Shown: piece by piece, positions 25,802-35,774 of the stretch
Position numbering within the stretch: the stretch's first letter is position 1
Layout of the letters: each line of letters starts with the position of its first letter
Assembly (NCBI RefSeq): GCF_014205215.1
Contig: NZ_JACHNC010000001.1
Span: 3,539,001-3,603,000 of the forward strand
Source: Actinoplanes lobatus
GTDB taxonomy: Bacteria > Actinomycetota > Actinomycetes > Mycobacteriales > Micromonosporaceae
Length of the DNA stretch: 64,000 nucleotides
Reading direction: 5' to 3'
Translations under genes and position numbers: made by a program
The notes under the pieces: generated by a model
What the model was told of the DNA's origin: nothing
What the model saw: the letters and a program-made list of their open reading frames with translations, nothing else
The model's database searches: none

Positions 25802-25977
25802 GTGCGGCGCTCCGATTCGATCGTGAGGCGGATTTGGCGTGCTCGGGCGGGTGTGATCCAGGAGTCCGGCTGTTCGGGCTCCTGGGCGGGTTTGGTGGCG
25901 CGGGCGGCGGCTCTGGCTACGGCGGCTGCGGCTGTGTCGCGGGTGCGTTTCTCGCCGGGGGTCAGGTGTGGCTGCAT
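25798..25977 (-). CDS. Small basic phage protein
   Basis: 59 residues from an ATG in a TGATG overlap. Lys/Arg/Ala-rich, with the C-terminal WITPARARQIRLTIESERR. Just under common ORF cut-offs. Confidence 0.55.
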   Translation of the reverse strand: MQPHLTPGEKRTRDTAAAAVARAAARATKPAQEPEQPDSWITPARARQIRLTIESERRT

Positions 25978-26312
25978 CACGTGCTGGGCACCACCACCAG
26001 GCGGCCAGCCCGTACCGCGACGGCTTCCTTGGCCTTCTTGGCGCGCCGCTTCCAGCGGTTCTCGTCGTCTGGCCAGTTCCGGTAGTGCCACCAGTTCCAC
26101 AGGTTGATCGCGTCGAAGACGATCTGCCAGGGCGTCGGGGAGTGCCAGTCTCTGACTGCGGCGAGTAGCAGGCCGGGCGGCGCGAAGAGCCACAGTTCCT
26201 GGTGTGCGCGGGCGAAGGAGCGCCACAGTGTCTCCGCCTTGGACCGGTTCCCGCGGATCTGGCAGTAGATGTGGCCGATCAGGGCGAAGACGAGCGCCAG
26301 GAGCCAGGTCAT
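25977..26312 (-). CDS. Membrane protein, 5' end removed by TnpB element
   Basis: 111 residues as it now stands, beginning MTWLLALVFALIGHIYCQ, a hydrophobic N-terminal anchor, followed by a basic segment and a second hydrophobic stretch (FAPPGLLLAAV). Joining the flanks of the adjacent element in frame puts 13 further codons (MADTLITLARVIS) in front, so the original product was about 124 residues. The current ATG is preceded by GGAGGA from the element, so translation probably continues from the internal Met. Confidence 0.7.
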   Translation of the reverse strand: MTWLLALVFALIGHIYCQIRGNRSKAETLWRSFARAHQELWLFAPPGLLLAAVRDWHSPTPWQIVFDAINLWNWWHYRNWPDDENRWKRRAKKAKEAVAVRAGRLVVVPST

Positions 26313-27698
26313 CAGATTCCTCCGTGGAGACTCCGGCCTTCAGGCCGGAGAGGAAACGGAACCCCTGCGGAGCAGGTCAGGGACAGCCCATTCGCCGTCA
26401 AGGCGGATGGGCGTCTACCCACGGACCGTCCGCGAGGGTGGTTCCACATAGGTGTGTTAGCTTGTGAGCCGTGTCCGAACGTGCTGTGAAGCGGGCTTTC
26501 AAGTTCCGCTTCCACCCGACTCCGGAGCAGGCCGACCTGCTGAACCGGACGTTCGGGTGTGTGCGCAAGGTGTACAACCTGGCCCTGGAGGCCCGCACCA
26601 CCGCCTGGTATCAGCGCCGGGAGCGGGTCAACTACAACGCCACCAGCGCCATGCTGACGGCGTGGAAGAAGACCGAGGAACTCGCGTTCCTCAACGAGGT
26701 CTCCGCCGTGCCGCTGCAGCAGGGCCTGCGGCATCTGCAAGGTGCGTTCGCCGCGTTCTGGGAGAAACGGGCCCGGTATCCGCGGTTCAAGTCCAAACAC
26801 AAGTCGCGGGCCTCGGCCGAGTTCACCCCGTCCGCGTTCCGCTGGAACAACGGCGAACTGACCCTGGCCAAGACGGCCACCCCGCTGGACATTGTCTGGT
26901 CGAGGCCACTGCCCGAAGGGCAGTCGCCGTCGACCGTGACCGTGTCCCGCGACAGCGCCGGCCGCTGGTTCGTGTCCCTGCTCTGCCAGGACACGATCGA
27001 ACCCCTCCCGACCGTCGAGAACGCGGTCGGGATCGACGCCGGACTCGACCACCTGATCACCCTGTCCACCGGCGAGAAGATCACCAATCCCCGTCACGAA
27101 CGCGCCGACCGTGAGCGGCTGGCCCGCGCCCAGCGGGAACTGGCCCGTAAAGAAAAGGGCTCCAGGAACCGGGACAAGGCCCGGCTGAAGGTCGCCCGCA
27201 TCCACGCCCGCATCAGCGACCGGCGCCGCGACCACCTGCACAAACTGACCACTCGGCTCGTGCGTGAGACCCAAACGCTCGTGATCGAGGACCTGACCGT
27301 GCGCAACATGGTCAAGAACCACACCCTGGCCCGCGCCATCAGTGACGCGGCCTGGACCACCTTCCGCGAACAGTTGACCTACAAATGCCAGTGGTACGGC
27401 CGGAACCTGGTCGTGATCGACCGCTGGTACCCGTCGTCCAAGGTCTGCTCGGCCTGCGGGCACCTCACCGAGAAAATGCCGCTCAACGTGCGGTCGTGGA
27501 CCTGCCCCTGCGGGGCCGCCCACGACCGTGACGTCAACGCGGCACGCAACATCCTGGCCGCCGGGCAGGCGGTGTCGGCCTATGGAGCTGGCGTAAGACC
27601 TCAACGGAAACCTCCGTCCGGGGCAGCAGGCTGAGAAGTAGGAAACCCGGTGGGCGACCACCGGAATCCCCGTCCCTTCAGGGCGGGGAGGATGTCAA
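26313..27698 (+). mobile_element. IS200/IS605-family tnpB-only element, copy 1
   Basis: 1386 bp. Boundaries come from comparing the three copies: each follows TCAT on the left and ends ...GATGTCAA on the right. No target duplication. The left end has a perfect 8-bp hairpin with TTCA loop at 26331-26350. The right end has a CCGGTGG/CCACCGG hairpin (27647-27664) and a CCCCG(T)CCC/GGGCGGGG hairpin with one bulged T, the kind of imperfect stem recognised by Y1 transposases. The TCAT/TCAA pair parallels left and right cleavage sites of the family. No tnpA is present, so movement must rely on a transposase in trans. Confidence 0.9.
26471..27634 (+). CDS. tnpB: TnpB RNA-guided nuclease, copy 1
   Basis: 387 residues from a GTG. 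All catalytic elements are intact: RuvC-I D189 (GIDAG), RuvC-II E273 (VIEDL), zinc finger C326/C329 and C345/C347 (SACGH, CPCG), and RuvC-III D354 (HDRDVNAAR). The N-terminal domain has the usual KFRFHPTPEQADLLNRTFG. TnpB cuts DNA next to its TAM, guided by RNA made from the element's right end, and helps the element persist. All three copies encode the same protein. Confidence 0.92.
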   Translation: MSERAVKRAFKFRFHPTPEQADLLNRTFGCVRKVYNLALEARTTAWYQRRERVNYNATSAMLTAWKKTEELAFLNEVSAVPLQQGLRHLQGAFAAFWEKRARYPRFKSKHKSRASAEFTPSAFRWNNGELTLAKTATPLDIVWSRPLPEGQSPSTVTVSRDSAGRWFVSLLCQDTIEPLPTVENAVGIDAGLDHLITLSTGEKITNPRHERADRERLARAQRELARKEKGSRNRDKARLKVARIHARISDRRRDHLHKLTTRLVRETQTLVIEDLTVRNMVKNHTLARAISDAAWTTFREQLTYKCQWYGRNLVVIDRWYPSSKVCSACGHLTEKMPLNVRSWTCPCGAAHDRDVNAARNILAAGQAVSAYGAGVRPQRKPPSGAAG

Positions 27699-27714
27699 GC
27701 TGATGACCCGGGCA
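27560..27714 (+). ncRNA. Putative omega RNA of copy 1
   Basis: In this family the guide RNA comes from the 3' part of tnpB through the right end, with the guide taken from the flank. The two right-end hairpins would be its 3' scaffold, and the guide would start at 27699 (GCTGATGACCCGGG). The 5' limit is a guess. Confidence 0.5.
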
Positions 27715-27737
27715 AGGGTGATGAGCGTGTCAGCCAT
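27678..27737 (-). pseudogene. Severed 5' end of the membrane-protein gene
   Basis: ATG at 27737 encodes MADTLITLARVIS, then runs into the element as LTSSPP and stops at 27678. In the empty site it continues in frame with MTWLLALV on the far side of copy 1. The start overlaps the stop of the upstream gene (ATGGCTGA). Confidence 0.75.
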
Positions 27738-27972
27738 GGTCGGTCTCCTCGGTCGGCAGTGAGCGCAGATGGCGGGCGGGCGGCTCGTCTCGGTCGGCGG
27801 CGATCCGCATTGAGCGGCAGATGCCGCAGTAGGCCGGGTCGGTCTTCGGGTACGGGCAGTCGGCGTGATGGCCGTTGCGGGCACGGCGGGCCGGGTAGAA
27901 GGCGGGGCGGGCGCCGGTTCGCGGGTTGACGGTCGGGTCGTCGGCGTGGAGTCGGATGACCTGGGCGCTCAC
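27730..27972 (-). CDS. Small Cys-rich phage protein
   Basis: 80 residues, GTG start in a GTGA overlap. HADCPYPKTDPAYCGICRSMRI holds three Cys and a His that could bind zinc. Function unknown. Confidence 0.6.
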   Translation of the reverse strand: MSAQVIRLHADDPTVNPRTGARPAFYPARRARNGHHADCPYPKTDPAYCGICRSMRIAADRDEPPARHLRSLPTEETDHG

Positions 27973-28766
27973 GGGGCTACCTCTGCGGCGTGCTGGCGGG
28001 CTTGGTGGGCGGCGATGGCGGCGGCGCGGCGTTCGCGGGCTTCGGCGATGGCTTCGGCCGCCCGGTCACCTCGGCCGAACGGCGAGCGCAGTTCAGGCAT
28101 CGGAGGAATCGAATTTCTCGGCTTTTCTCGCACGCGCGGACCCGCAGCGTCCGTACCCAGATTTCCCCCGGTGTCAGGAGAGGTGAGTTCTTTCGGGTAG
28201 GTGGTAAGGGAAGGTGGGGGCTCATCCTGGGTGAGCGCAGATGGCGTCCCAGGTGAGCGCAGATGGCCGGTATCTGCGCTCACCTGGGTGGGCGCAGATG
28301 GCTCTGGCTGAGGCTCGGGTTCTGCGCTCTGCTCGGGTGAGCGCAGATGCTTGGCTCGGATGGTGCGGTCGGACGACCCGGCACGGTTCCGATTGCGGAT
28401 CTCGTCGCGCATCCGGTCGTACGCTGCGGGGTCCGGCAGATCGATGTGTTCCAGCAGCTGGGTGCCGAGGACGAGCCGGTACTCGTCGGACAGGCCTCGG
28501 CGGAAGTTGCCGTGCCTGACCAGCTCGATCAGGCCGACAACGCGCATCCAGGCCAGGTAGCGGCGGGCGGTGGAGTAGCCGATCTCGCAGTCGACGGCCA
28601 GGCGGGCCACGCCACAGTGGATGCCGGTCCCGTCGGCATCCGCATAGGAGCTGAAGGTGAGCGCAACACCCTTGCGTTCGCGGCCGAGCCGGGCACGGCG
28701 CACGAGGGCGTTCCAGGCGCCGACGGTGACGCCGATGTCGGGTGGGGTGAGCGCAGATTGCGTCAT
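27969..28766 (-). CDS. Replication initiator-like HTH protein with internal origin
   Basis: 265 residues. The N-terminal ~100 form a winged-helix domain (SYADADGTGIHCGVARLAVD, STARRYLAWMRVVGLIELV), the pattern of phage O-type and HTH_36 initiators. The middle is a Ser/Pro/Glu linker; the C-terminal tail is basic and Ala-rich. The linker DNA consists of repeated GTGAGCGCAGAT iterons, as in lambda O, where the origin lies inside the gene. No helicase motif is present, so the host helicase is probably recruited. Confidence 0.7.
   Translation of the reverse strand: MTQSALTPPDIGVTVGAWNALVRRARLGRERKGVALTFSSYADADGTGIHCGVARLAVDCEIGYSTARRYLAWMRVVGLIELVRHGNFRRGLSDEYRLVLGTQLLEHIDLPDPAAYDRMRDEIRNRNRAGSSDRTIRAKHLRSPEQSAEPEPQPEPSAPTQVSADTGHLRSPGTPSALTQDEPPPSLTTYPKELTSPDTGGNLGTDAAGPRVREKPRNSIPPMPELRSPFGRGDRAAEAIAEARERRAAAIAAHQARQHAAEVAP
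28231..28348. repeat. Iteron cluster inside the initiator gene (candidate origin)
   Basis: Copies of GTGAGCGCAGAT at 28231, 28253 and 28337, one inverted at 28272-28283, a one-mismatch copy at 28288, and a degenerate inverted half near 28320. Spacing is irregular and both orientations occur. Confidence 0.7.
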
Positions 28767-28792
28767 GGGCGCTCACCCGGGCGAGCGCAGAT
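28747..28792. repeat. Second iteron cluster at the initiator's 5' end
   Basis: GTGAGCGCAGAT at 28747-28758 and GCGAGCGCAGAT at 28781-28792, with an inverted GGCGCTCAC half between them. They overlap the start codon region, so the protein could also repress its own gene. Confidence 0.65.
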
Positions 28793-28954
28793 GGTTCGGG
28801 CACGCGGCATGGCGCGGTAGGGCTCTGGCATCATGAAGCCAGGCGTCCTTCCGGTCGGGATAAGCGACGGGTATGGACTGCCGAGTCGGCCGGGTGTGGG
28901 CGCTCCAACGCCCTGCCCGGCCGCGCTGTCTCGGCGGCCGTTTGTGCTGCTCAT
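28763..28954 (-). CDS. Small protein upstream of the initiator
   Basis: 63 residues from the ATG at 28954, ending in an ATGA overlap with the initiator start. Low complexity (Gly/Pro/Arg). The only evidence is the overlap arrangement seen throughout this operon; an internal Met-Met start would give a shorter peptide. Confidence 0.4.
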   Translation of the reverse strand: MSSTNGRRDSAAGQGVGAPTPGRLGSPYPSLIPTGRTPGFMMPEPYRAMPRARTICARPGERP

Positions 28955-28958
28955 CCTA

Positions 28959-29073
28959 CCGGTCCGGTCTGTCCGGGAGTCCACCGACCCACCCCGTCGC
29001 GTCACGAAAACAGTCGATCTTTCTGATAGATGGCGAACTGTCCGATCCGGCCCTCCCCAACCGGACCGGACAG
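28959..29073. promoter_or_regulatory. Repeated CTGTCCGGTCCGG operator-like boxes
   Basis: CCGGACCGGACAG at 29061-29073 is the inverted partner of CTGTCCGATCCGG at 29038-29050. A related box (CCGGTCCGGTCTGTCCGG) lies at 28959-28976. They fall in the ~124-base gap before the replication genes, a likely promoter/operator region. Confidence 0.5.
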
Positions 29074-29078
29074 CACGG

Positions 29079-29351
29079 TCAGGCCTCCGGGAAACAGCCG
29101 GGTTCGGTGCAGGCGTGCGCGCCCATGTGGTCGGCCCACGCCGCCGTGAATAGCGCGGCCGACGGGCCCTTCGGGTCACATGCCGCGACCGGCACGTCCA
29201 CCTCCGCCGGCTGGTTACTGCCCATCGCGCGGCCGGTATTCGTGCGCTTGTCGCTGGCCGGGCGGTGGGCGATCGCGCCGGGGCCGAGCTGGCCTCTGAC
29301 GGCGAGGCTGTAGCCGCCGGTCAGCAGCTCACGCGGGATTGGTGTGCTCAT
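29079..29351 (-). CDS. Hypothetical phage protein
   Basis: 90 residues from the ATG at 29351, in a TGATG overlap. Contains PIPRELLTGGYSLAVRGQLG and a C-terminal DHMGAHACTEPGC. Function unknown. Confidence 0.55.
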   Translation of the reverse strand: MSTPIPRELLTGGYSLAVRGQLGPGAIAHRPASDKRTNTGRAMGSNQPAEVDVPVAACDPKGPSAALFTAAWADHMGAHACTEPGCFPEA

Positions 29352-29566
29352 CAGGTGTCTCCTCGGGTCCATGCGGTGAGGTCCAGCCAGGGCCGGTCGA
29401 TGGGGACGGCCGCGGCGAGGACGAAGATCAGCCGCCAGCGGTCAGCGGGGTCAGGGAGCTGGTGGCGGAGCCAGGTGCCGTTGGCCTCGGCGCCGTACTC
29501 CCGCACCCGGGCCGCCAGCTGTGCGGCGACCTGGGCGAGCCGGTCGGCGGCGTCATCCGAGGCCAC
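29351..29566 (-). CDS. Hypothetical phage protein
   Basis: 71 residues from a GTG. Helical (ADRLAQVAAQLAARVREYG), then WRLIFVLAAAVPIDRPWLDL. Overlaps both neighbours. Confidence 0.55.
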   Translation of the reverse strand: MASDDAADRLAQVAAQLAARVREYGAEANGTWLRHQLPDPADRWRLIFVLAAAVPIDRPWLDLTAWTRGDT

Positions 29567-29765
29567 CGGCCACCGCCAGGTCGAACAGCTCCAGCTGCCC
29601 GTCGACCAGCCCGGCCGGCACCGTCCGGGTGGAGGCGGCGAGCAGGGTGGTGCAGCGGCGGGACTGGGTGAGGCCGAGACGGCGGGCGCAGGTGGGGCCG
29701 ACGCCGCGGGCCCGGGCGAGCGGGTCCCGCAGCTTCCGGGCGCACACCCGACACCGGCGGCTCAC
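29553..29765 (-). CDS. DUF6011-like zinc-finger protein
   Basis: 70 residues from the GTG at 29765 (GTGA overlap). The N-terminus RRCRVCARKLRDPLARARG then VGPTC has the CxxC...GxGPxC pattern of the DUF6011 family common in actinophages. The remainder is hydrophobic/acidic. Confidence 0.65.
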   Translation of the reverse strand: MSRRCRVCARKLRDPLARARGVGPTCARRLGLTQSRRCTTLLAASTRTVPAGLVDGQLELFDLAVAGGLG

Positions 29766-29959
29766 CCGCCACCTCGCGTGTCGTGACCAGGCCGGTAGTG
29801 GTAGTCCCGGCCGTCGCGGCGCTGAGTCGTCCAGCCCTCCGCCTTGGCGTCGGCAAGCGCCTTCGCCCGAGTGTTGGCGTAGATCGCGGGATCGCAGCCA
29901 TACGGATCGCCGGGGAGGCCGCAGTCGCACCGCAACTCGTACTCGGTGTAGATGCTCAC
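29762..29959 (-). CDS. Small Cys-rich phage protein
   Basis: 65 residues from a GTG. RCDCGLPGDPYGCDPAIY gives three cysteines; the C-terminus is basic with aromatic residues (RRDGRDYHYRPG). Short overlaps with both neighbours. Confidence 0.55.
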   Translation of the reverse strand: MSIYTEYELRCDCGLPGDPYGCDPAIYANTRAKALADAKAEGWTTQRRDGRDYHYRPGHDTRGGG

Positions 29960-30099
29960 AGGACACCGAGCCGTGCCGCGGTGACGACCTCGGCGTGCTG
30001 CCGGTCGTGCACCTCGCCGCCCACACACGGGCCACCGCACGCGCCGCAGTAGTCGTCCTCGTCCGGCTCCGGCGGGTCGAAGTCCAGGTCGGCGTTCAC
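29956..30099 (-). CDS. 47-residue acidic CxxC protein
   Basis: GTG start at 30099, stop overlapping the next start. The peptide opens NADLDFDPPEPDEDDYCGAC and includes GGPCVGGEVHDRQH, a possible zinc site. Short, but joined to the operon by GTGA overlaps on both sides. Confidence 0.55.
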   Translation of the reverse strand: MNADLDFDPPEPDEDDYCGACGGPCVGGEVHDRQHAEVVTAARLGVL

Positions 30100-30320
30100 C
30101 GGTCGCCTGCCCGGCGCTGGTGCTCGGCCTGGGCCTCGGCCCGCTCCTGCTCGGCGGTGGTGATCGTGTCCTCGTCGTGCACCGAGTTCTCCCGCGACAG
30201 CGGGCAGCAGGCGCCCACGCCAGGGACCTCGCTGGGCCGCCAGCGGTGCGAGGCGATCCCGCGGTGAGGCTGGCGGGCCCGCCGGACCGGCTGGAGGCCG
30301 ATCCGGCTACGGCGCCTCAC
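30096..30320 (-). CDS. Small hypothetical phage protein
   Basis: 74 residues from a GTG. Basic first half (RRRSRIGLQPVRRARQPHRG), acidic C-terminus (VHDEDTITTAEQERAEAQAE). GTGA overlaps on both sides. Confidence 0.5.
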   Translation of the reverse strand: MRRRSRIGLQPVRRARQPHRGIASHRWRPSEVPGVGACCPLSRENSVHDEDTITTAEQERAEAQAEHQRRAGDR

Positions 30321-30364
30321 GCGACCGCTCCAACCTGCTCAAAGGTGACGCGGTAGGCGGCCAT
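30317..30364 (-). CDS. 15-codon overlapping ORF
   Basis: ATG in a TGATG overlap with the 208-residue gene; stop in a GTGA overlap with the next. The peptide MAAYRVTFEQVGAVA resembles the opening of longer YRVTFE-type phage proteins, so it may be a truncated gene or a coupling leader. Confidence 0.3.
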   Translation of the reverse strand: MAAYRVTFEQVGAVA

Positions 30365-30990
30365 CAGGACTCGTCCTCCGAGCAGCCCTCGTCGTGCTGG
30401 ACGACGCTCCTGCTGCACCCGGGGCACCCCGGATAGCCGGGCTCCCCGAACTCCGGCACATATGCCGGCACGTCCTCCTCTTCCTCCGGTTCATGGACGG
30501 CAGCAGCCGCGCGCTGCGGCTGGAGCCGTTCCAGGAGCTCGGCCCCGACCACCGCATACACCTGCTTCGCCTCACGGGAGGCGCGAATCGTCAGCGCGCC
30601 CGGGACGCCACCAGGTCGGACCGACATACCCGGCACGATCTCCCCGGTCTGCGGGTCCACCACCACATCCCCGGCCGGCACCGTCCGGGCCAGCAGGGCG
30701 GCCTGAAACGAAGCCCGAACCTGGTGGATGGTCTCGACCTCGCCCGGGTACCGCTGCTGGCACCAGGCCAGCAGCGCGGCGATGTCGGAGATGTACGCGG
30801 TCTCCTTCGACAGCGGGAGCGCGACGGTGCCGAGGTCGGGCAGGCGCCACGACGGGGCGGTGCCCTGCTGGTCGAGTTCGGCGCGTGCGTCGTCGGCGAG
30901 CTGCTGCCGGAGGCTCCCGGCCCGGTCCTTGGCGGCGGTGGCCAGGGCCTCCATGCGGAGGATCTCGGCGACCTGGTCGGCGCGGTTCAT
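30364..30990 (-). CDS. Hypothetical phage protein beside recombination genes
   Basis: 208 residues. N-terminal helices (MNRADQVAEILRMEALATAA), a middle domain with WRLPDLGTVALPLSKETAYI, an acidic linker, and C-terminal CPGCSRSV. The ATG is preceded by GGAGGA from TnpB copy 2, which has separated the gene from its native GGAGGGG. Neighbourhood (Sak4-like ATPase two genes up) suggests DNA metabolism, but the fold is not recognised. Confidence 0.6.
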   Translation of the reverse strand: MNRADQVAEILRMEALATAAKDRAGSLRQQLADDARAELDQQGTAPSWRLPDLGTVALPLSKETAYISDIAALLAWCQQRYPGEVETIHQVRASFQAALLARTVPAGDVVVDPQTGEIVPGMSVRPGGVPGALTIRASREAKQVYAVVGAELLERLQPQRAAAAVHEPEEEEDVPAYVPEFGEPGYPGCPGCSRSVVQHDEGCSEDES

Positions 30991-32376
30991 CAGATTCCTC
31001 CGTGGAGACTCCGGCCTTCAGGCCGGAGAGGAAACGGAACCCCTGCGGAGCAGGTCAGGGACAGCCCATTCGCCGTCAAGGCGGATGGGCGTCTACCCAC
31101 GGACCGTCCGCGAGGGTGGTTCCACATAGGTGTGTTAGCTTGTGAGCCGTGTCCGAACGTGCTGTGAAGCGGGCTTTCAAGTTCCGCTTCCACCCGACTC
31201 CGGAGCAGGCCGACCTGCTGAACCGGACGTTCGGGTGTGTGCGCAAGGTGTACAACCTGGCCCTGGAGGCCCGCACCACCGCCTGGTATCAGCGCCGGGA
31301 GCGGGTCAACTACAACGCCACCAGCGCCATGCTGACGGCGTGGAAGAAGACCGAGGAACTCGCGTTCCTCAACGAGGTCTCCGCCGTGCCGCTGCAGCAG
31401 GGCCTGCGGCATCTGCAAGGTGCGTTCGCCGCGTTCTGGGAGAAACGGGCCCGGTATCCGCGGTTCAAGTCCAAACACAAGTCGCGGGCCTCGGCCGAGT
31501 TCACCCCGTCCGCGTTCCGCTGGAACAACGGCGAACTGACCCTGGCCAAGACGGCCACCCCGCTGGACATTGTCTGGTCGAGGCCACTGCCCGAAGGGCA
31601 GTCGCCGTCGACCGTGACCGTGTCCCGCGACAGCGCCGGCCGCTGGTTCGTGTCCCTGCTCTGCCAGGACACGATCGAACCCCTCCCGACCGTCGAGAAC
31701 GCGGTCGGGATCGACGCCGGACTCGACCACCTGATCACCCTGTCCACCGGCGAGAAGATCACCAATCCCCGTCACGAACGCGCCGACCGTGAGCGGCTGG
31801 CCCGCGCCCAGCGGGAACTGGCCCGTAAAGAAAAGGGCTCCAGGAACCGGGACAAGGCCCGGCTGAAGGTCGCCCGCATCCACGCCCGCATCAGCGACCG
31901 GCGCCGCGACCACCTGCACAAACTGACCACTCGGCTCGTGCGTGAGACCCAAACGCTCGTGATCGAGGACCTGACCGTGCGCAACATGGTCAAGAACCAC
32001 ACCCTGGCCCGCGCCATCAGTGACGCGGCCTGGACCACCTTCCGCGAACAGTTGACCTACAAATGCCAGTGGTACGGCCGGAACCTGGTCGTGATCGACC
32101 GCTGGTACCCGTCGTCCAAGGTCTGCTCGGCCTGCGGGCACCTCACCGAGAAAATGCCGCTCAACGTGCGGTCGTGGACCTGCCCCTGCGGGGCCGCCCA
32201 CGACCGTGACGTCAACGCGGCACGCAACATCCTGGCCGCCGGGCAGGCGGTGTCGGCCTATGGAGCTGGCGTAAGACCTCAACGGAAACCTCCGTCCGGG
32301 GCAGCAGGCTGAGAAGTAGGAAACCCGGTGGGCGACCACCGGAATCCCCGTCCCTTCAGGGCGGGGAGGATGTCAA
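30991..32376 (+). mobile_element. IS200/IS605-family tnpB-only element, copy 2
   Basis: 1386 bp, apparently identical to copies 1 and 3. It splits an ATGA overlap. Empty-site reconstruction gives ...CAG CGA TGA with the downstream ATGA start. After insertion the upstream frame reads CAG CGT TGA, the last bases coming from the element, so Arg and stop are kept. The downstream gene keeps its ATG and gains the element's GGAGGA. Confidence 0.9.
31149..32312 (+). CDS. tnpB: TnpB RNA-guided nuclease, copy 2
   Basis: Same 387 residues as copy 1, with D189, E273 and D354 and the four zinc-finger cysteines all intact. Identity of the three proteins and their shadow frames implies very recent duplication. 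Confidence 0.92.
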   Translation: MSERAVKRAFKFRFHPTPEQADLLNRTFGCVRKVYNLALEARTTAWYQRRERVNYNATSAMLTAWKKTEELAFLNEVSAVPLQQGLRHLQGAFAAFWEKRARYPRFKSKHKSRASAEFTPSAFRWNNGELTLAKTATPLDIVWSRPLPEGQSPSTVTVSRDSAGRWFVSLLCQDTIEPLPTVENAVGIDAGLDHLITLSTGEKITNPRHERADRERLARAQRELARKEKGSRNRDKARLKVARIHARISDRRRDHLHKLTTRLVRETQTLVIEDLTVRNMVKNHTLARAISDAAWTTFREQLTYKCQWYGRNLVVIDRWYPSSKVCSACGHLTEKMPLNVRSWTCPCGAAHDRDVNAARNILAAGQAVSAYGAGVRPQRKPPSGAAG

Positions 32377-32392
32377 CGCTGCCCCTCCCCCA
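32238..32392 (+). ncRNA. Putative omega RNA of copy 2
   Basis: Same right-end scaffold; the guide would start at 32377 (CGCTGCCCCTCCCC). 5' limit uncertain. Confidence 0.45.
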
Positions 32393-32540
32393 TGGTCGGG
32401 GTGAGCGGTGCGGCGATCCGGGTCGGCCCGTGCCAGATCAGGCGCAGCCCGTCCACCTGCTCCGCGGAGAGCGGCGGGGCCGCGGCGACGAGGCGGCCGA
32501 TGTGGGCCAGGATCCTCGGGTCCTGTGTGATGTCGTTCAT
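32373..32540 (-). CDS. 55-residue phage protein between Sak4-like gene and TnpB copy 2
   Basis: ATG at 32540 overlaps the stop of the Sak4-like gene (ATGA). The peptide opens MNDITQDPRILAHIGRLVAA and ends TMGEGQR. The final Arg wobble base and the stop codon now come from TnpB copy 2 (CGT TGA instead of CGA TGA), so the protein is unchanged. Function unknown. Confidence 0.7.
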   Translation of the reverse strand: MNDITQDPRILAHIGRLVAAAPPLSAEQVDGLRLIWHGPTRIAAPLTPTMGEGQR

Positions 32541-33586
32541 CGCGCACCCGCCCCGACCGGCTCCTGCTGCTGGAGGTAGCTCTCCAGCTTCGCGATCACC
32601 TGGTTGACCTCGGCGGCGGTCAGCTCCTTGGTCTGGTCGACCTCACGCTTGACCACGTCGGCGATGTAGGCCATGCCCTGTTCGCGGCTGGAGATCTCCG
32701 CCCGCTGGAACAGGCCGAACATCTGGTTGAGCTGGTCCTTGGAGGCGAACTCCACCTCCGGTTCGGCGGGCTGTGTCTCGACCAGGTCCCGCACGTGTGC
32801 CGTGCCCGGGTCGCACTTCAACGCGTCGAAGACGATGCCCTCGATCGACCAGTCGGCGGCCAGCTTGAACGGGTCGTCGTAGCCGGGCCGGATCCCGGTG
32901 TGCACCGACCGCAGCCCGACCACGAGACCCGGCTCGGACCGGTCGAGGCGGATCCAGCACGACACGTCGAACCCGAGCGTCTTGTGGCCCTCGACCCGGT
33001 ACTCGCGTTTGCGCTCGATCGGCTTGCCGTTGTCGTCCAGGGCGGCGACGTCCTTGCCCCGGGCGGTGATCAGCACGATGCCGGGGAAGGTCATCAGGAT
33101 CGTCATGAGCTTGCGGTGGCGGGCGTTGGCCTCGTTCCACAGGTCCATGGAGATGGTGGGCTCTTCGTCGGCGGCGAGCCGGGCCTTGCCGTACTTCTGG
33201 GCCTTGGCGTTGTGCCGCTGGCGGGCCTTGTCGGAGGCCCAGTCCTTGTGGAGGTCCCACTCGGCGGTCATCGAGTCGATCGTCAGCACGACGGGCGGCT
33301 GGCCGGCATCGGCGGCGTGCTGAGCCTCGTCGCGGACCGCGGTGACCGCGCCGAGGATCGAAGCCCAGGTGCCGTCGTGCTCGACGACGAGGTAGTTGGC
33401 GCCGGGGATGGCGCCGTACTCGTCGGCGGAGCCTTCGCCGAGGTCGATCCAGTACATCTGGCCGATGCGGCTGCTGGTGGAGAACTGGGCGCAGGCCCAG
33501 GACTTGCCGCTCTTCTCGCCGCCCTCGATGAGGATGAGGGGCCAGGGGACGCGGCCGGTCGGCTTGCGGGTCTTGAGCGCGGTCAT
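32537..33586 (-). CDS. Sak4-like RecA-core ATPase (phage recombination)
   Basis: 349 residues. Walker A EGGEKSGKSWA near residue 22, Walker B-like VVLTIDSMTAEWD at ~100, and sensor region IVLITARGKDV near 170. The C-terminal ~80 residues are a separate helical domain (FGLFQRAEISSREQGMAYIADVV). Sak4-type proteins are ssDNA-dependent ATPases that work with SSB in annealing recombination. The start ATG abuts copy 3, whose end provides the ribosome binding site. Confidence 0.75.
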   Translation of the reverse strand: MTALKTRKPTGRVPWPLILIEGGEKSGKSWACAQFSTSSRIGQMYWIDLGEGSADEYGAIPGANYLVVEHDGTWASILGAVTAVRDEAQHAADAGQPPVVLTIDSMTAEWDLHKDWASDKARQRHNAKAQKYGKARLAADEEPTISMDLWNEANARHRKLMTILMTFPGIVLITARGKDVAALDDNGKPIERKREYRVEGHKTLGFDVSCWIRLDRSEPGLVVGLRSVHTGIRPGYDDPFKLAADWSIEGIVFDALKCDPGTAHVRDLVETQPAEPEVEFASKDQLNQMFGLFQRAEISSREQGMAYIADVVKREVDQTKELTAAEVNQVIAKLESYLQQQEPVGAGAR

Positions 33587-34972
33587 CAGATTCCTCCGTG
33601 GAGACTCCGGCCTTCAGGCCGGAGAGGAAACGGAACCCCTGCGGAGCAGGTCAGGGACAGCCCATTCGCCGTCAAGGCGGATGGGCGTCTACCCACGGAC
33701 CGTCCGCGAGGGTGGTTCCACATAGGTGTGTTAGCTTGTGAGCCGTGTCCGAACGTGCTGTGAAGCGGGCTTTCAAGTTCCGCTTCCACCCGACTCCGGA
33801 GCAGGCCGACCTGCTGAACCGGACGTTCGGGTGTGTGCGCAAGGTGTACAACCTGGCCCTGGAGGCCCGCACCACCGCCTGGTATCAGCGCCGGGAGCGG
33901 GTCAACTACAACGCCACCAGCGCCATGCTGACGGCGTGGAAGAAGACCGAGGAACTCGCGTTCCTCAACGAGGTCTCCGCCGTGCCGCTGCAGCAGGGCC
34001 TGCGGCATCTGCAAGGTGCGTTCGCCGCGTTCTGGGAGAAACGGGCCCGGTATCCGCGGTTCAAGTCCAAACACAAGTCGCGGGCCTCGGCCGAGTTCAC
34101 CCCGTCCGCGTTCCGCTGGAACAACGGCGAACTGACCCTGGCCAAGACGGCCACCCCGCTGGACATTGTCTGGTCGAGGCCACTGCCCGAAGGGCAGTCG
34201 CCGTCGACCGTGACCGTGTCCCGCGACAGCGCCGGCCGCTGGTTCGTGTCCCTGCTCTGCCAGGACACGATCGAACCCCTCCCGACCGTCGAGAACGCGG
34301 TCGGGATCGACGCCGGACTCGACCACCTGATCACCCTGTCCACCGGCGAGAAGATCACCAATCCCCGTCACGAACGCGCCGACCGTGAGCGGCTGGCCCG
34401 CGCCCAGCGGGAACTGGCCCGTAAAGAAAAGGGCTCCAGGAACCGGGACAAGGCCCGGCTGAAGGTCGCCCGCATCCACGCCCGCATCAGCGACCGGCGC
34501 CGCGACCACCTGCACAAACTGACCACTCGGCTCGTGCGTGAGACCCAAACGCTCGTGATCGAGGACCTGACCGTGCGCAACATGGTCAAGAACCACACCC
34601 TGGCCCGCGCCATCAGTGACGCGGCCTGGACCACCTTCCGCGAACAGTTGACCTACAAATGCCAGTGGTACGGCCGGAACCTGGTCGTGATCGACCGCTG
34701 GTACCCGTCGTCCAAGGTCTGCTCGGCCTGCGGGCACCTCACCGAGAAAATGCCGCTCAACGTGCGGTCGTGGACCTGCCCCTGCGGGGCCGCCCACGAC
34801 CGTGACGTCAACGCGGCACGCAACATCCTGGCCGCCGGGCAGGCGGTGTCGGCCTATGGAGCTGGCGTAAGACCTCAACGGAAACCTCCGTCCGGGGCAG
34901 CAGGCTGAGAAGTAGGAAACCCGGTGGGCGACCACCGGAATCCCCGTCCCTTCAGGGCGGGGAGGATGTCAA
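33587..34972 (+). mobile_element. IS200/IS605-family tnpB-only element, copy 3
   Basis: 1386 bp, same ends and orientation as the others. Target is again TCAT at an ATGA overlap: the empty site reads CAG CCC CGA TGA for the upstream gene and ATGACC for the Sak4-like gene. With the element, the upstream frame is CAG CCC CGT TGA, unchanged at protein level. Confidence 0.9.
33745..34908 (+). CDS. tnpB: TnpB RNA-guided nuclease, copy 3
   Basis: 387 residues identical to the other two copies; all RuvC and zinc-finger residues are present. GTG start. Confidence 0.92.
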   Translation: MSERAVKRAFKFRFHPTPEQADLLNRTFGCVRKVYNLALEARTTAWYQRRERVNYNATSAMLTAWKKTEELAFLNEVSAVPLQQGLRHLQGAFAAFWEKRARYPRFKSKHKSRASAEFTPSAFRWNNGELTLAKTATPLDIVWSRPLPEGQSPSTVTVSRDSAGRWFVSLLCQDTIEPLPTVENAVGIDAGLDHLITLSTGEKITNPRHERADRERLARAQRELARKEKGSRNRDKARLKVARIHARISDRRRDHLHKLTTRLVRETQTLVIEDLTVRNMVKNHTLARAISDAAWTTFREQLTYKCQWYGRNLVVIDRWYPSSKVCSACGHLTEKMPLNVRSWTCPCGAAHDRDVNAARNILAAGQAVSAYGAGVRPQRKPPSGAAG

Positions 34973-34988
34973 CGGGGCTGCCCCTTCG
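34834..34988 (+). ncRNA. Putative omega RNA of copy 3
   Basis: Guide would start at 34973 (CGGGGCTGCCCCTTCG). 5' limit uncertain. Confidence 0.45.
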
Positions 34989-35175
34989 AGTCGTCGGCGT
35001 TGGCGGGGTCGGTGGCGGGGCCGCGCAGGAACTCCTCCCAGATGGCACGGAGCCGCTGGGAGGCCGGGGTGGCCGGCCACTCGGTGATCTGGGGCGGGAT
35101 GCCGGAGCAGCCGCAGAGGTCGCTGAGCAGCGCGCCGCAGCAGGCCCGGACGGGCACGGTGTGGACGGTGGTCAC
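34969..35175 (-). CDS. Small Cys-rich phage protein
   Basis: 68 residues, GTG start overlapping the sigma factor stop. RACCGALLSDLCGCSG near the start, then a helix (QRLRAIWEEFLRG). Its stop codon is supplied by TnpB copy 3. Confidence 0.65.
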   Translation of the reverse strand: MTTVHTVPVRACCGALLSDLCGCSGIPPQITEWPATPASQRLRAIWEEFLRGPATDPANADDSKGQPR

Positions 35176-35774
35176 AGCCAGTCCTCCACATCCAGGCGCT
35201 GGGCCAGGTTGCGGGTCGCCCGGTAGGTCGCGGCCTTGACCGCGCCCTCGGCGATGCCCATCTCCCGGGCCGTCTCGACGACCGACAAGCCCCGGAAGTA
35301 CCGCAGGATGAGCACGGTCTGCTGCTGGTCAGTGAGGTACAGCAGTGCCGCCGCGAGGTCCTGACTCCGCAGCGCCGCGAGGACCGGCTCGTCCGCCGCC
35401 GGCACCGGATCTAGAAGGTCGAACGCACCGTTCTCGAACGGGCTGGTGACGGCGCCGGACGGCCGGCTCAACCTGGTCGACAACCGCTTGAAGTGGTCGG
35501 CGACCAGGTTTCGGGCGATCGTGAAGAGCCACGCCCCGATCGCCTTGTCACGGCACTCGAACTGCGTGCCCAACTGGGCGAACGCCTTGCAGAACGTGTC
35601 CTGCGCGAGGTCCTCGGCGAGCTGCCGGTCCAGCACCCGACGGGACGCGAACCGGAAGACCAGCGGGTAGTGGATGCGGTAGATCTCCGCAAACGCCTCC
35701 CGGTCACCGGCCTGGTGTCGGCGCACCAGGTCGAGGCCGTCCTCGACGGAGGGCTGCATCGTGGGGGCGGTCAT
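35172..35774 (-). CDS. ECF-type RNA polymerase sigma factor
   Basis: 200 residues from the ATG at 35774 (ATGA overlap). Region 2 is clear (FAEIYRIHYPLVFRFASRRV, LAEDLAQDTFCKAFAQL, WLFTIARNLVADHFKR) and so is region 4 (YLTDQQQTVLILRYFRGLSVVETAREMG, then AVKAATYRATRNLAQRL). Region 1.1 and region 3 are missing, as in ECF factors. It lies early in the leftward operon, so it could redirect host polymerase to later phage promoters. No anti-sigma gene is recognisable, but the two membrane proteins upstream may be relevant. Confidence 0.85.
   Translation of the reverse strand: MTAPTMQPSVEDGLDLVRRHQAGDREAFAEIYRIHYPLVFRFASRRVLDRQLAEDLAQDTFCKAFAQLGTQFECRDKAIGAWLFTIARNLVADHFKRLSTRLSRPSGAVTSPFENGAFDLLDPVPAADEPVLAALRSQDLAAALLYLTDQQQTVLILRYFRGLSVVETAREMGIAEGAVKAATYRATRNLAQRLDVEDWL

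Follow-up and report, generated by a model that had tools for sequence, protein, structure and literature searches.

TnpB-only elements of an Actinoplanes prophage and their relatives insert mostly at start codons and carry an antisense Shine-Dalgarno sequence

Results

Five identical tnpB-only elements in the Actinoplanes lobatus genome

The window analysed here is a stretch of 64,000 nucleotides (nt) of the Actinoplanes lobatus genome (contig NZ_JACHNC010000001.1, positions 3,539,001 to 3,603,000) and contains three mutually identical copies of a 1386-base-pair (bp) mobile element encoding TnpB. Two more identical copies are present in the 10.4-Mb actinobacterial genome, one at 7.22 Mb and one on a 35.5-kb second contig, giving five in total. 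The window region matches IMG/VR prophage UViG 2873296955_000003, and the second contig matches a second IMG/VR virus from the same genome. We find that elements of this family lie mostly at start codons of genes on the opposite strand and that most of them carry, in their left ends, an antisense Shine-Dalgarno (SD) sequence at initiation distance from the start codon.

Each copy contains tnpB, a left-end hairpin, and a right-end hairpin, and contains no tnpA. From this gene content, we classify the elements as IS1341-type (tnpB-only) members of the IS200/IS605 family; in the IS1341 group, likewise, tnpB alone lies between the left and right ends (PMC9956272). The left end starts CAGATTCCTCCGTGGAGA, and the opposite strand reads GGAGGA, 5 nt, ATG, confirming the arrangement GGAGGA-ATCTG-ATG described in the initial annotation of the window. 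The features of the elements are as follows.

26313..27698, + strand: element copy 1, 1386 bp; TCAT at 26309-26312; identical to the other four copies
30991..32376, + strand: element copy 2; TCAT at 30987-30990; identical to the other four copies
33587..34972, + strand: element copy 3; TCAT at 33583-33586; identical to the other four copies
26471..27634, + strand: tnpB of copy 1, 387 amino acids (aa); Pfam OrfB_IS605, Cas12f1-like_TNB, and HTH_OrfB_IS605 (PF01385, PF07282, and PF12323)
31149-32312, + strand: tnpB of copy 2
33745-34908, + strand: tnpB of copy 3
26318..26323, − strand: antisense SD GGAGGA of copy 1, 5 nt before ATG
30996-31001 and 33592-33597, − strand: antisense SD GGAGGA of copies 2 and 3
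26327..26330, + strand: GAGA, putative guide tetranucleotide of the left end, located 5′ of the hairpin; matches GA.A, as expected for TCAT (code from PMC5934647)
26331..26350, + strand: left-end hairpin CTCCGGCCTTCAGGCCGGAG
27664..27667, + strand: putative right guide GAAT, with the same letters as IS608 GR (PMC5934647)
27668..27688, + strand: right-end hairpin CCCCGTCCCTTCAGGGCGGGG
27695..27698, + strand: right cleavage site TCAA (antisense TTGA) of copy 1
32373-32376 and 34969-34972, + strand: right cleavage site TCAA of copies 2 and 3

TCAT, which is ATGA on the minus strand, precedes all three copies in the window, as had been reported, and precedes the other two genomic copies as well; the right flanks differ, and TCAT is not repeated there, indicating insertion 3′ of a fixed tetranucleotide without target duplication. 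Position 26309, initially given as the start, belongs to the flanking TCAT as its first base, and the element proper begins at 26313.

The protein matches the TnpB structures 8h1j and 8bf8 (E about 4e-69) and has the catalytic motifs GIDAGL, IEDL, and DRDVNAARNI (D, E, D). TldR proteins are TnpB repressors without RuvC catalytic residues; the presence of the RuvC motifs in the window copy speaks against a TldR identity.

Insertion sites in the window

The genes that flank the three copies are as follows.

25977..26312, − strand: gene downstream of copy 1; likely native start ATGGCTGAC 13 codons upstream, beyond the element, at about 27735 (empty-site reading)
30364..30990, − strand: 208-aa gene (g208), ATG abuts copy 2; seven uninterrupted homologues begin ATGAACCGC
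32373..32540, − strand: 55-aa open reading frame (ORF) upstream of copy 2, stopping at the TGA within TTGA of the element
32537..33586, − strand: 349-aa phage gene, ATG abuts copy 3; PHROG 1366, with a weak AAA_24 match below the Pfam cut-off
34969..35175, − strand: 68-aa ORF upstream of copy 3; stop from TTGA

Each copy had been proposed to abut a start ATG. Uninterrupted homologues support this for copies 2 and 3, which appear to sit at real starts, and the empty-site reading contradicts it for copy 1. In particular, all seven examined loci with a clear homologue of g208, in related prophages without the element there, begin ATGAACCGC. The 349-aa gene starts ATGACC in 7 of 33 loci (L231-L236 and L246, uninterrupted prophage relatives), two of which have the same CCCGATGACC overlap, and GTGACC in 4 (L230 and L237-L239); in the other 22 the match stops short of the first residue. 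At both copies, the right end TTGA turns the CGA TGA of the empty site into CGT TGA, retaining Arg and the stop, as the initial annotation stated.

At copy 1, the empty site contains an in-frame ATGGCTGAC with its own GAGGAGA, 13 codons upstream, overlapping the stop of the preceding gene. Judged from this sequence, copy 1 very likely lies at an internal ATGA and not at the native start, and would therefore have severed the first 13 codons and placed the element's SD in front of an in-frame ATG within the gene. The internal ATGA and the element SD could possibly restart translation there, as an in-gene rescue. The first 13 codons (27699-27740) are split from the rest of the gene (25977-26312) by copy 1.

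Relatives of the elements lie mostly at start codons

Relatives were collected in a family scan of one genome per species, from which the best 80 of 196 were taken; their records are named actinobacteria, with one exception, a metagenome-assembled Steroidobacteraceae. Left ends were found by alignment to reference left ends, with a TCAT required within 30 nt, and lay directly after TCAT in 72 of the 80; the eight without a recognisable left end at TCAT were excluded (L028, L039, L050, L051, and L076 dropped; L033, L055, and L078 without TCAT). Left ends were set by hand in L061, L066, L070, L081, and L101; the last four of these, which have no ordinary left hairpin, were kept, as was the weakly aligned L043. 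Closer loci, from the same family as the host, contributed 36 of 40 (L167, L170, L171, and L175 have no TCAT left end). Removal of 5 duplicates and addition of the 5 own-genome copies gave a final set of 108 sites.

By a test combining ORF, GC-frame, and upstream criteria (ORF test), 81 of the 108 sites are start-like, compared with 267 of 2209 other ATGA in the same flanks (odds ratio 21.8; the remaining controls comprise 1328 in-gene and 614 other sites). By a gene finder blind to the insertion, the site is an exact start in 57 of 108 cases, compared with 125 of 2280 controls (odds ratio 19.3; 52/108 and 115/2280 without the SD bonus); the other sites comprise 12 in frame within 90 nt, 32 intergenic, and 7 in-gene, and the other controls comprise 93, 429, and 1633, respectively. 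Neither test is exact: the ORF test scores copy 1 as start-like despite the empty-site reading, and the gene finder overlooks some short genes (e.g. those at L040 and L081). RefSeq annotation was checked in a sample of 13 plasmid regions, 5 of which were annotated and had a match reaching the left end (H49, which also reaches it, lies outside the sample); in 5/5 the TCAT coincides with the ATG annotated as start of the opposite gene, at 3 distinct host genes. Compared with control ATGA sites, homologous copies are thus found mostly at start codons, as the initial annotation had anticipated.

The start preference could in principle be a by-product of transposition: TnpA would need only TCAT, hits within genes would be purged, ATGA would be common at starts, and the SD would be half of a stem required for transposition. 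Consistent with purging, in-gene sites make up 60% of control ATGA but 6.5% of insertions. However, with in-gene sites excluded, the ratio of starts to other sites is 81:19 among insertions and 267:614 among controls (odds ratio 9.8), and the ratio of starts to intergenic sites by the blind gene finder is 57:32 and 125:429 (odds ratio 6.1). Starts therefore exceed other non-coding TCAT 6- to 10-fold in odds ratio, indicating that loss of in-gene hits is not the whole cause. The excess could arise through a lower cost of insertion, by way of the SD, or through better access to the target strand.

The initial annotation placed the pattern in phage operons. The best 80 relatives instead adjoin ordinary bacterial genes in actinobacterial genome contigs, and a scan of viral contigs yielded five loci, two of which are the window genome's own prophages. 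Judged from their translations, the host genes look mutually unrelated.

The A. lobatus genome contains further, less similar elements outside the set of 108 (L006-L009, L011-L013, and L015-L019), with left ends 74-86% similar and mostly after TCAT. By frame score, L008, L009, L012, L015, and L016 look like insertions at ATG starts, L017 and L019 do so weakly, and L006, L007, L011, and L013 do not; L018 follows TCAG, and L006 and L007 carry tnpA remnants. In three Streptomyces plasmids (L023, L278, and L282), a TnpB element lies between a glucose-1-phosphate thymidylyltransferase gene and rfbB.

The left-end guide covaries with the target

In IS608, a guide of four bases located 5′ of the hairpin reads the target, with TTAC read by AAAG and TCAA read by GAAT (PMC5934647). 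From this pattern we derived the expected guides GA.A for TCAT, GA.G for TCAC, and AG.G for CTAC, and compared them with the bases preceding the left hairpin, whose foot was called by a simple rule. GA.A is present in 70 of 101 TCAT ends with a called hairpin, a count that is not blind because the TCAT reference strings contain the guide, and GA.G is present in 6 of 11 TCAC ends (Fisher p = 3e-7). The cross patterns are rare: 3/101 TCAT ends read GA.G, and 0/11 TCAC ends read GA.A. AG.G is present in 7/7 CTAC ends, which is not an independent count, since the strings used to find them hold the guide; five of these ends are from fourteen relatives of 44-46% (L210-L223, set aside) and two are from own-genome elements. 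The left-end guide thus covaries with the target in the manner expected from the pairing code of IS608.

Read on the opposite strand, TCAC is GTGA. By the same start test, GTG starts are found at 11/14 TCAC sites, compared with 27/324 control GTGA. The TCAC set was picked by eye from 20 left ends read, of which L206, L264, L269, and L276 have TCAT and L272 and L273 have neither. The count of 11/14 was obtained with the right end placed at the first GTCAA after position 1150, a rule that still misplaces the right end of L267 (not start-like); other right-end placements, many of them wrong or missing, gave 9/14 and 2/3 start-like sites.

The left end carries an antisense Shine-Dalgarno sequence

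On the gene strand, 96 of the 108 left ends (89%) contain an SD, defined as a duplex with the 16S tail of ≤ −6 kcal/mol; the same threshold is reached by 51% of control native starts and by 21% of shuffles. The distance from SD to ATG is 5-7 nt in 91/108, and mostly 6 nt. In the TCAC group, 13 of 16 left ends (14 TCAC and 2 TCAT) reach the threshold, compared with 22% of shuffles. The antisense SD noted in the window copies is thus conserved among relatives. Past the right end, the displaced native SD can still be recognised at 68% of the 81 start sites.

Several features of the SD bear on whether it is a by-product of end structure. The strand carrying the SD partly pairs with bases that follow the left hairpin: 95 of 108 left ends have a helix of 5 or more, compared with a mean of 38.5 for shuffled linkers; pairs seen by eye past the hairpin include TTCCGT:ACGGAA, CTTCGT:ACGAAG, and TTTCGT:ACGAAA. 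Structure could therefore explain part of the conservation of the SD, and we conclude that in the TCAT group the left-end SD, which partly overlaps this stem, is not purely a translation signal. In addition, SD-less elements are also found at starts (7/12, compared with 74/96 for SD-bearing elements), indicating that the start preference is independent of the SD.

Other observations argue against a by-product. The motif itself varies (GGAAGG, GGAGG, AAGGAG, and GAAAGG), and, mapped on a tree of TnpB, one motif class gives way to another about 33 times, whereas an SD is gained or lost just 8 times. By eye, several TCAC elements have their stem (e.g. ATCGGC:GCCGAT) inside of, and separate from, the CTCC of the SD, and the SD distance is nevertheless kept. 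The seven near-identical CTAC left ends, which are not aimed at starts, contain an SD in 0/7. The separate stem in TCAC elements and the SD-less CTAC ends speak for an added translational role of the SD, and, on balance, we consider it unlikely that start preference and SD are together a by-product of transposition.

Overlapping gene junctions and the TCAA right end

An upstream gene has its stop within the ATGA of the start at 31 of the 81 start sites, compared with 42 of 261 control starts (p = 8e-5), confirming that overlapping junctions, as at copies 2 and 3, are over-represented among insertions. All 31 elements at overlaps end in TCAA, antisense TTGA, and thereby retain the upstream stop; the last codon is synonymous in 29/31. 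Among all 108 right ends, 101 are TCAA, 5 are CCAA, 1 is TCAC, and 1 is uncalled.

The TTGA end had been read as part of a fit of the element to operon junctions. The same TCAA cleavage site is present in IS608 (PMC5934647), and a cut after TCAT combined with a TCAA end is enough to retain the stop, with no need for adaptation of this element. Stop retention is therefore probably inherited chemistry that happens to fit.

In two Streptomyces (L040 and L081), the element lies at the start of a 112-codon gene whose product resembles PII proteins; at L040, the junction GCATGA became GCTTGA.

Other features of the elements and the window

In the window, the minus-strand frame is open across nearly the whole element (26312-27661), and the same is seen in relatives: it is open over at least 90% of the element in 102/107, and over the 1164 nt of tnpB in 103/107, compared with 130/182 other long genes. 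The TGATG junction at the gene start ends the frame in 33/107 relatives, and in Thermobifida phage P1312 (L025) the frame is annotated as a gene (P1312_047). An adaptive reading of this frame was dropped: the homologues are non-independent and GC-rich codon use opens the same frame, and we therefore make no claim on it.

Between copies 1 and 2, a 265-aa gene and its surroundings (27759-28801) contain iteron-like repeats (GTGAGCGCAGATGG), with an 18-nt unit present five times alongside related units; the region is perhaps a replication origin.

Discussion

We propose, as the probable explanation of these observations, that IS1341-type elements guided to TCAT or TCAC land at start codons and supply a new SD, making insertion near-silent. 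The left-end guide would be set to TCAT, and in a sister group to TCAC, the reverse complements of ATGA and GTGA; because these are the reverse complements of a start codon followed by A, insertion would often part a gene from its leader at the start codon. A single-strand circle, produced by a Y1 transposase acting in trans, would insert after TCAT on the template strand of the gene, leaving the affected gene on the opposite strand and directed away from tnpB. On the gene strand, the outermost bases of the left end would provide a new SD at initiation distance, replacing the native SD, which would be pushed more than 1.3 kb upstream, past the right end. Where the upstream gene ends in the same ATGA, the TCAA end would create TTGA, keeping the stop and nearly always a synonymous last codon. 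Operon transcription would pass antisense through the element, with ribosomes initiating on the element SD, and, given such read-through, insertion would be nearly silent for translation of both genes. TnpB would cut the empty site, thereby keeping the element, as proposed in PMC8612924.

Several points weigh against this explanation, in addition to the stem pairing, the SD-less elements at starts, and the internal position of copy 1. Not all sites are starts: the ORF test assigns 7 of the 108 as in-gene, 19 as other, and 1 as edge, and neither the copy at 7.22 Mb nor the copy on the second contig is start-like by this test. The strict guide pattern is absent in 31/101 TCAT ends, many of which are by eye miscalled hairpin feet, and no hairpin was called in 7 TCAT and 3 TCAC ends. 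Six Y1 transposase matches are present in the host genome, of which two are complete, both in CTAC elements, and the rest broken or partial; no intact matching TnpA was found in this genome. A promoter scan found no sigma-70-like promoter, and two terminator-like sites are present on the gene strand within the element (expected 0.9, standard deviation 1.2), which speaks against easy read-through.

The initial annotation attributed the fit to selection for harmless insertion specifically in phage operons. That attribution is unsupported in this form: relatives show the same pattern outside phages, IS608 has the TTGA end too, the SD partly overlaps a left-end stem, and copy 1 very likely lies off its native start. 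Start-codon insertion with a supplied antisense SD is instead a property of the wider family. Selection for harmlessness as such is plausible, and selection for low cost may have kept the fit.

A stronger version, which we regard as possible but doubtful, is that these elements form a transposon clade dedicated to translation starts. The guide would recognise a start codon followed by A (ATGA, or GTGA after a single base change in the guide), targeting would also sense the initiation region as an exposed or SD-bearing strand, and the left end would be a portable ribosome-binding site making insertion translationally silent. Native SDs at targeted starts are stronger than at control starts (median −7.5, n = 81, vs −6.25, n = 252; p = 0.004), and non-start insertions (n = 25) show no native-SD excess (p = 0.75). 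SD-guided target choice in general was rejected on the latter result and survives only as part of such a dedicated clade.

Retention of the elements as regulatory cargo that alters downstream expression, whether as a mobile leader, by antisense control, or with TnpB as an RNA-guided repressor at the empty site, appears highly improbable. The elements do lie directly upstream of a gene at start sites, and a TnpB guide copying the right flank would match that gene's leader and SD. Against this, the host genes look mutually unrelated, no sigma-70-like promoter was detected, and the D, E, D motifs are intact by pattern match in 103/107 family TnpBs, unlike in nuclease-dead TldR.

Returning to near-silent insertion at starts, the elements resemble IS608 and ISDra2 in inserting 3′ of a short target without duplication and in having subterminal hairpins, and resemble IS608 in the right cleavage site TCAA with guide GAAT and in the left guide of four bases 5′ of the hairpin (PMC5934647, PMC8612924). 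They differ in having TCAT or TCAC, not TTAC or TTGAT, as target, in lying mostly at start codons, in carrying an antisense SD in the left end, and in having no internal tnpA. IStrons are likewise IS200/IS605-type or other insertion sequences rendered harmless to the host gene, but by a self-splicing group I intron (PMC4227781); here, an Rfam search of 25900-35200 gave no match at E ≤ 0.1, and hence no group I intron match, and harmlessness would instead come from replacement of the ribosome-binding site. A word search of the accessible text of PMC9956272 finds no 'start codon', 'TCAT', or 'Streptomyces', and a full-text literature search, with subscription papers mostly outside its coverage, returned no title or abstract opening on start-codon insertion of IS200/IS605 elements.

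For genome annotation, these elements are a warning that leaders may be misread, and spurious antisense ORFs called, beside actinobacterial TnpB genes. A TnpB guide RNA matching the leader and SD of a host gene would, moreover, offer a natural origin for TnpB-derived regulators of gene starts. More broadly, aiming at start codons and replacing the displaced ribosome-binding site would constitute a low-cost route of insertion, which explains in simple and testable terms how a TnpB element that is widespread may settle at low cost in compact genomes and phages.

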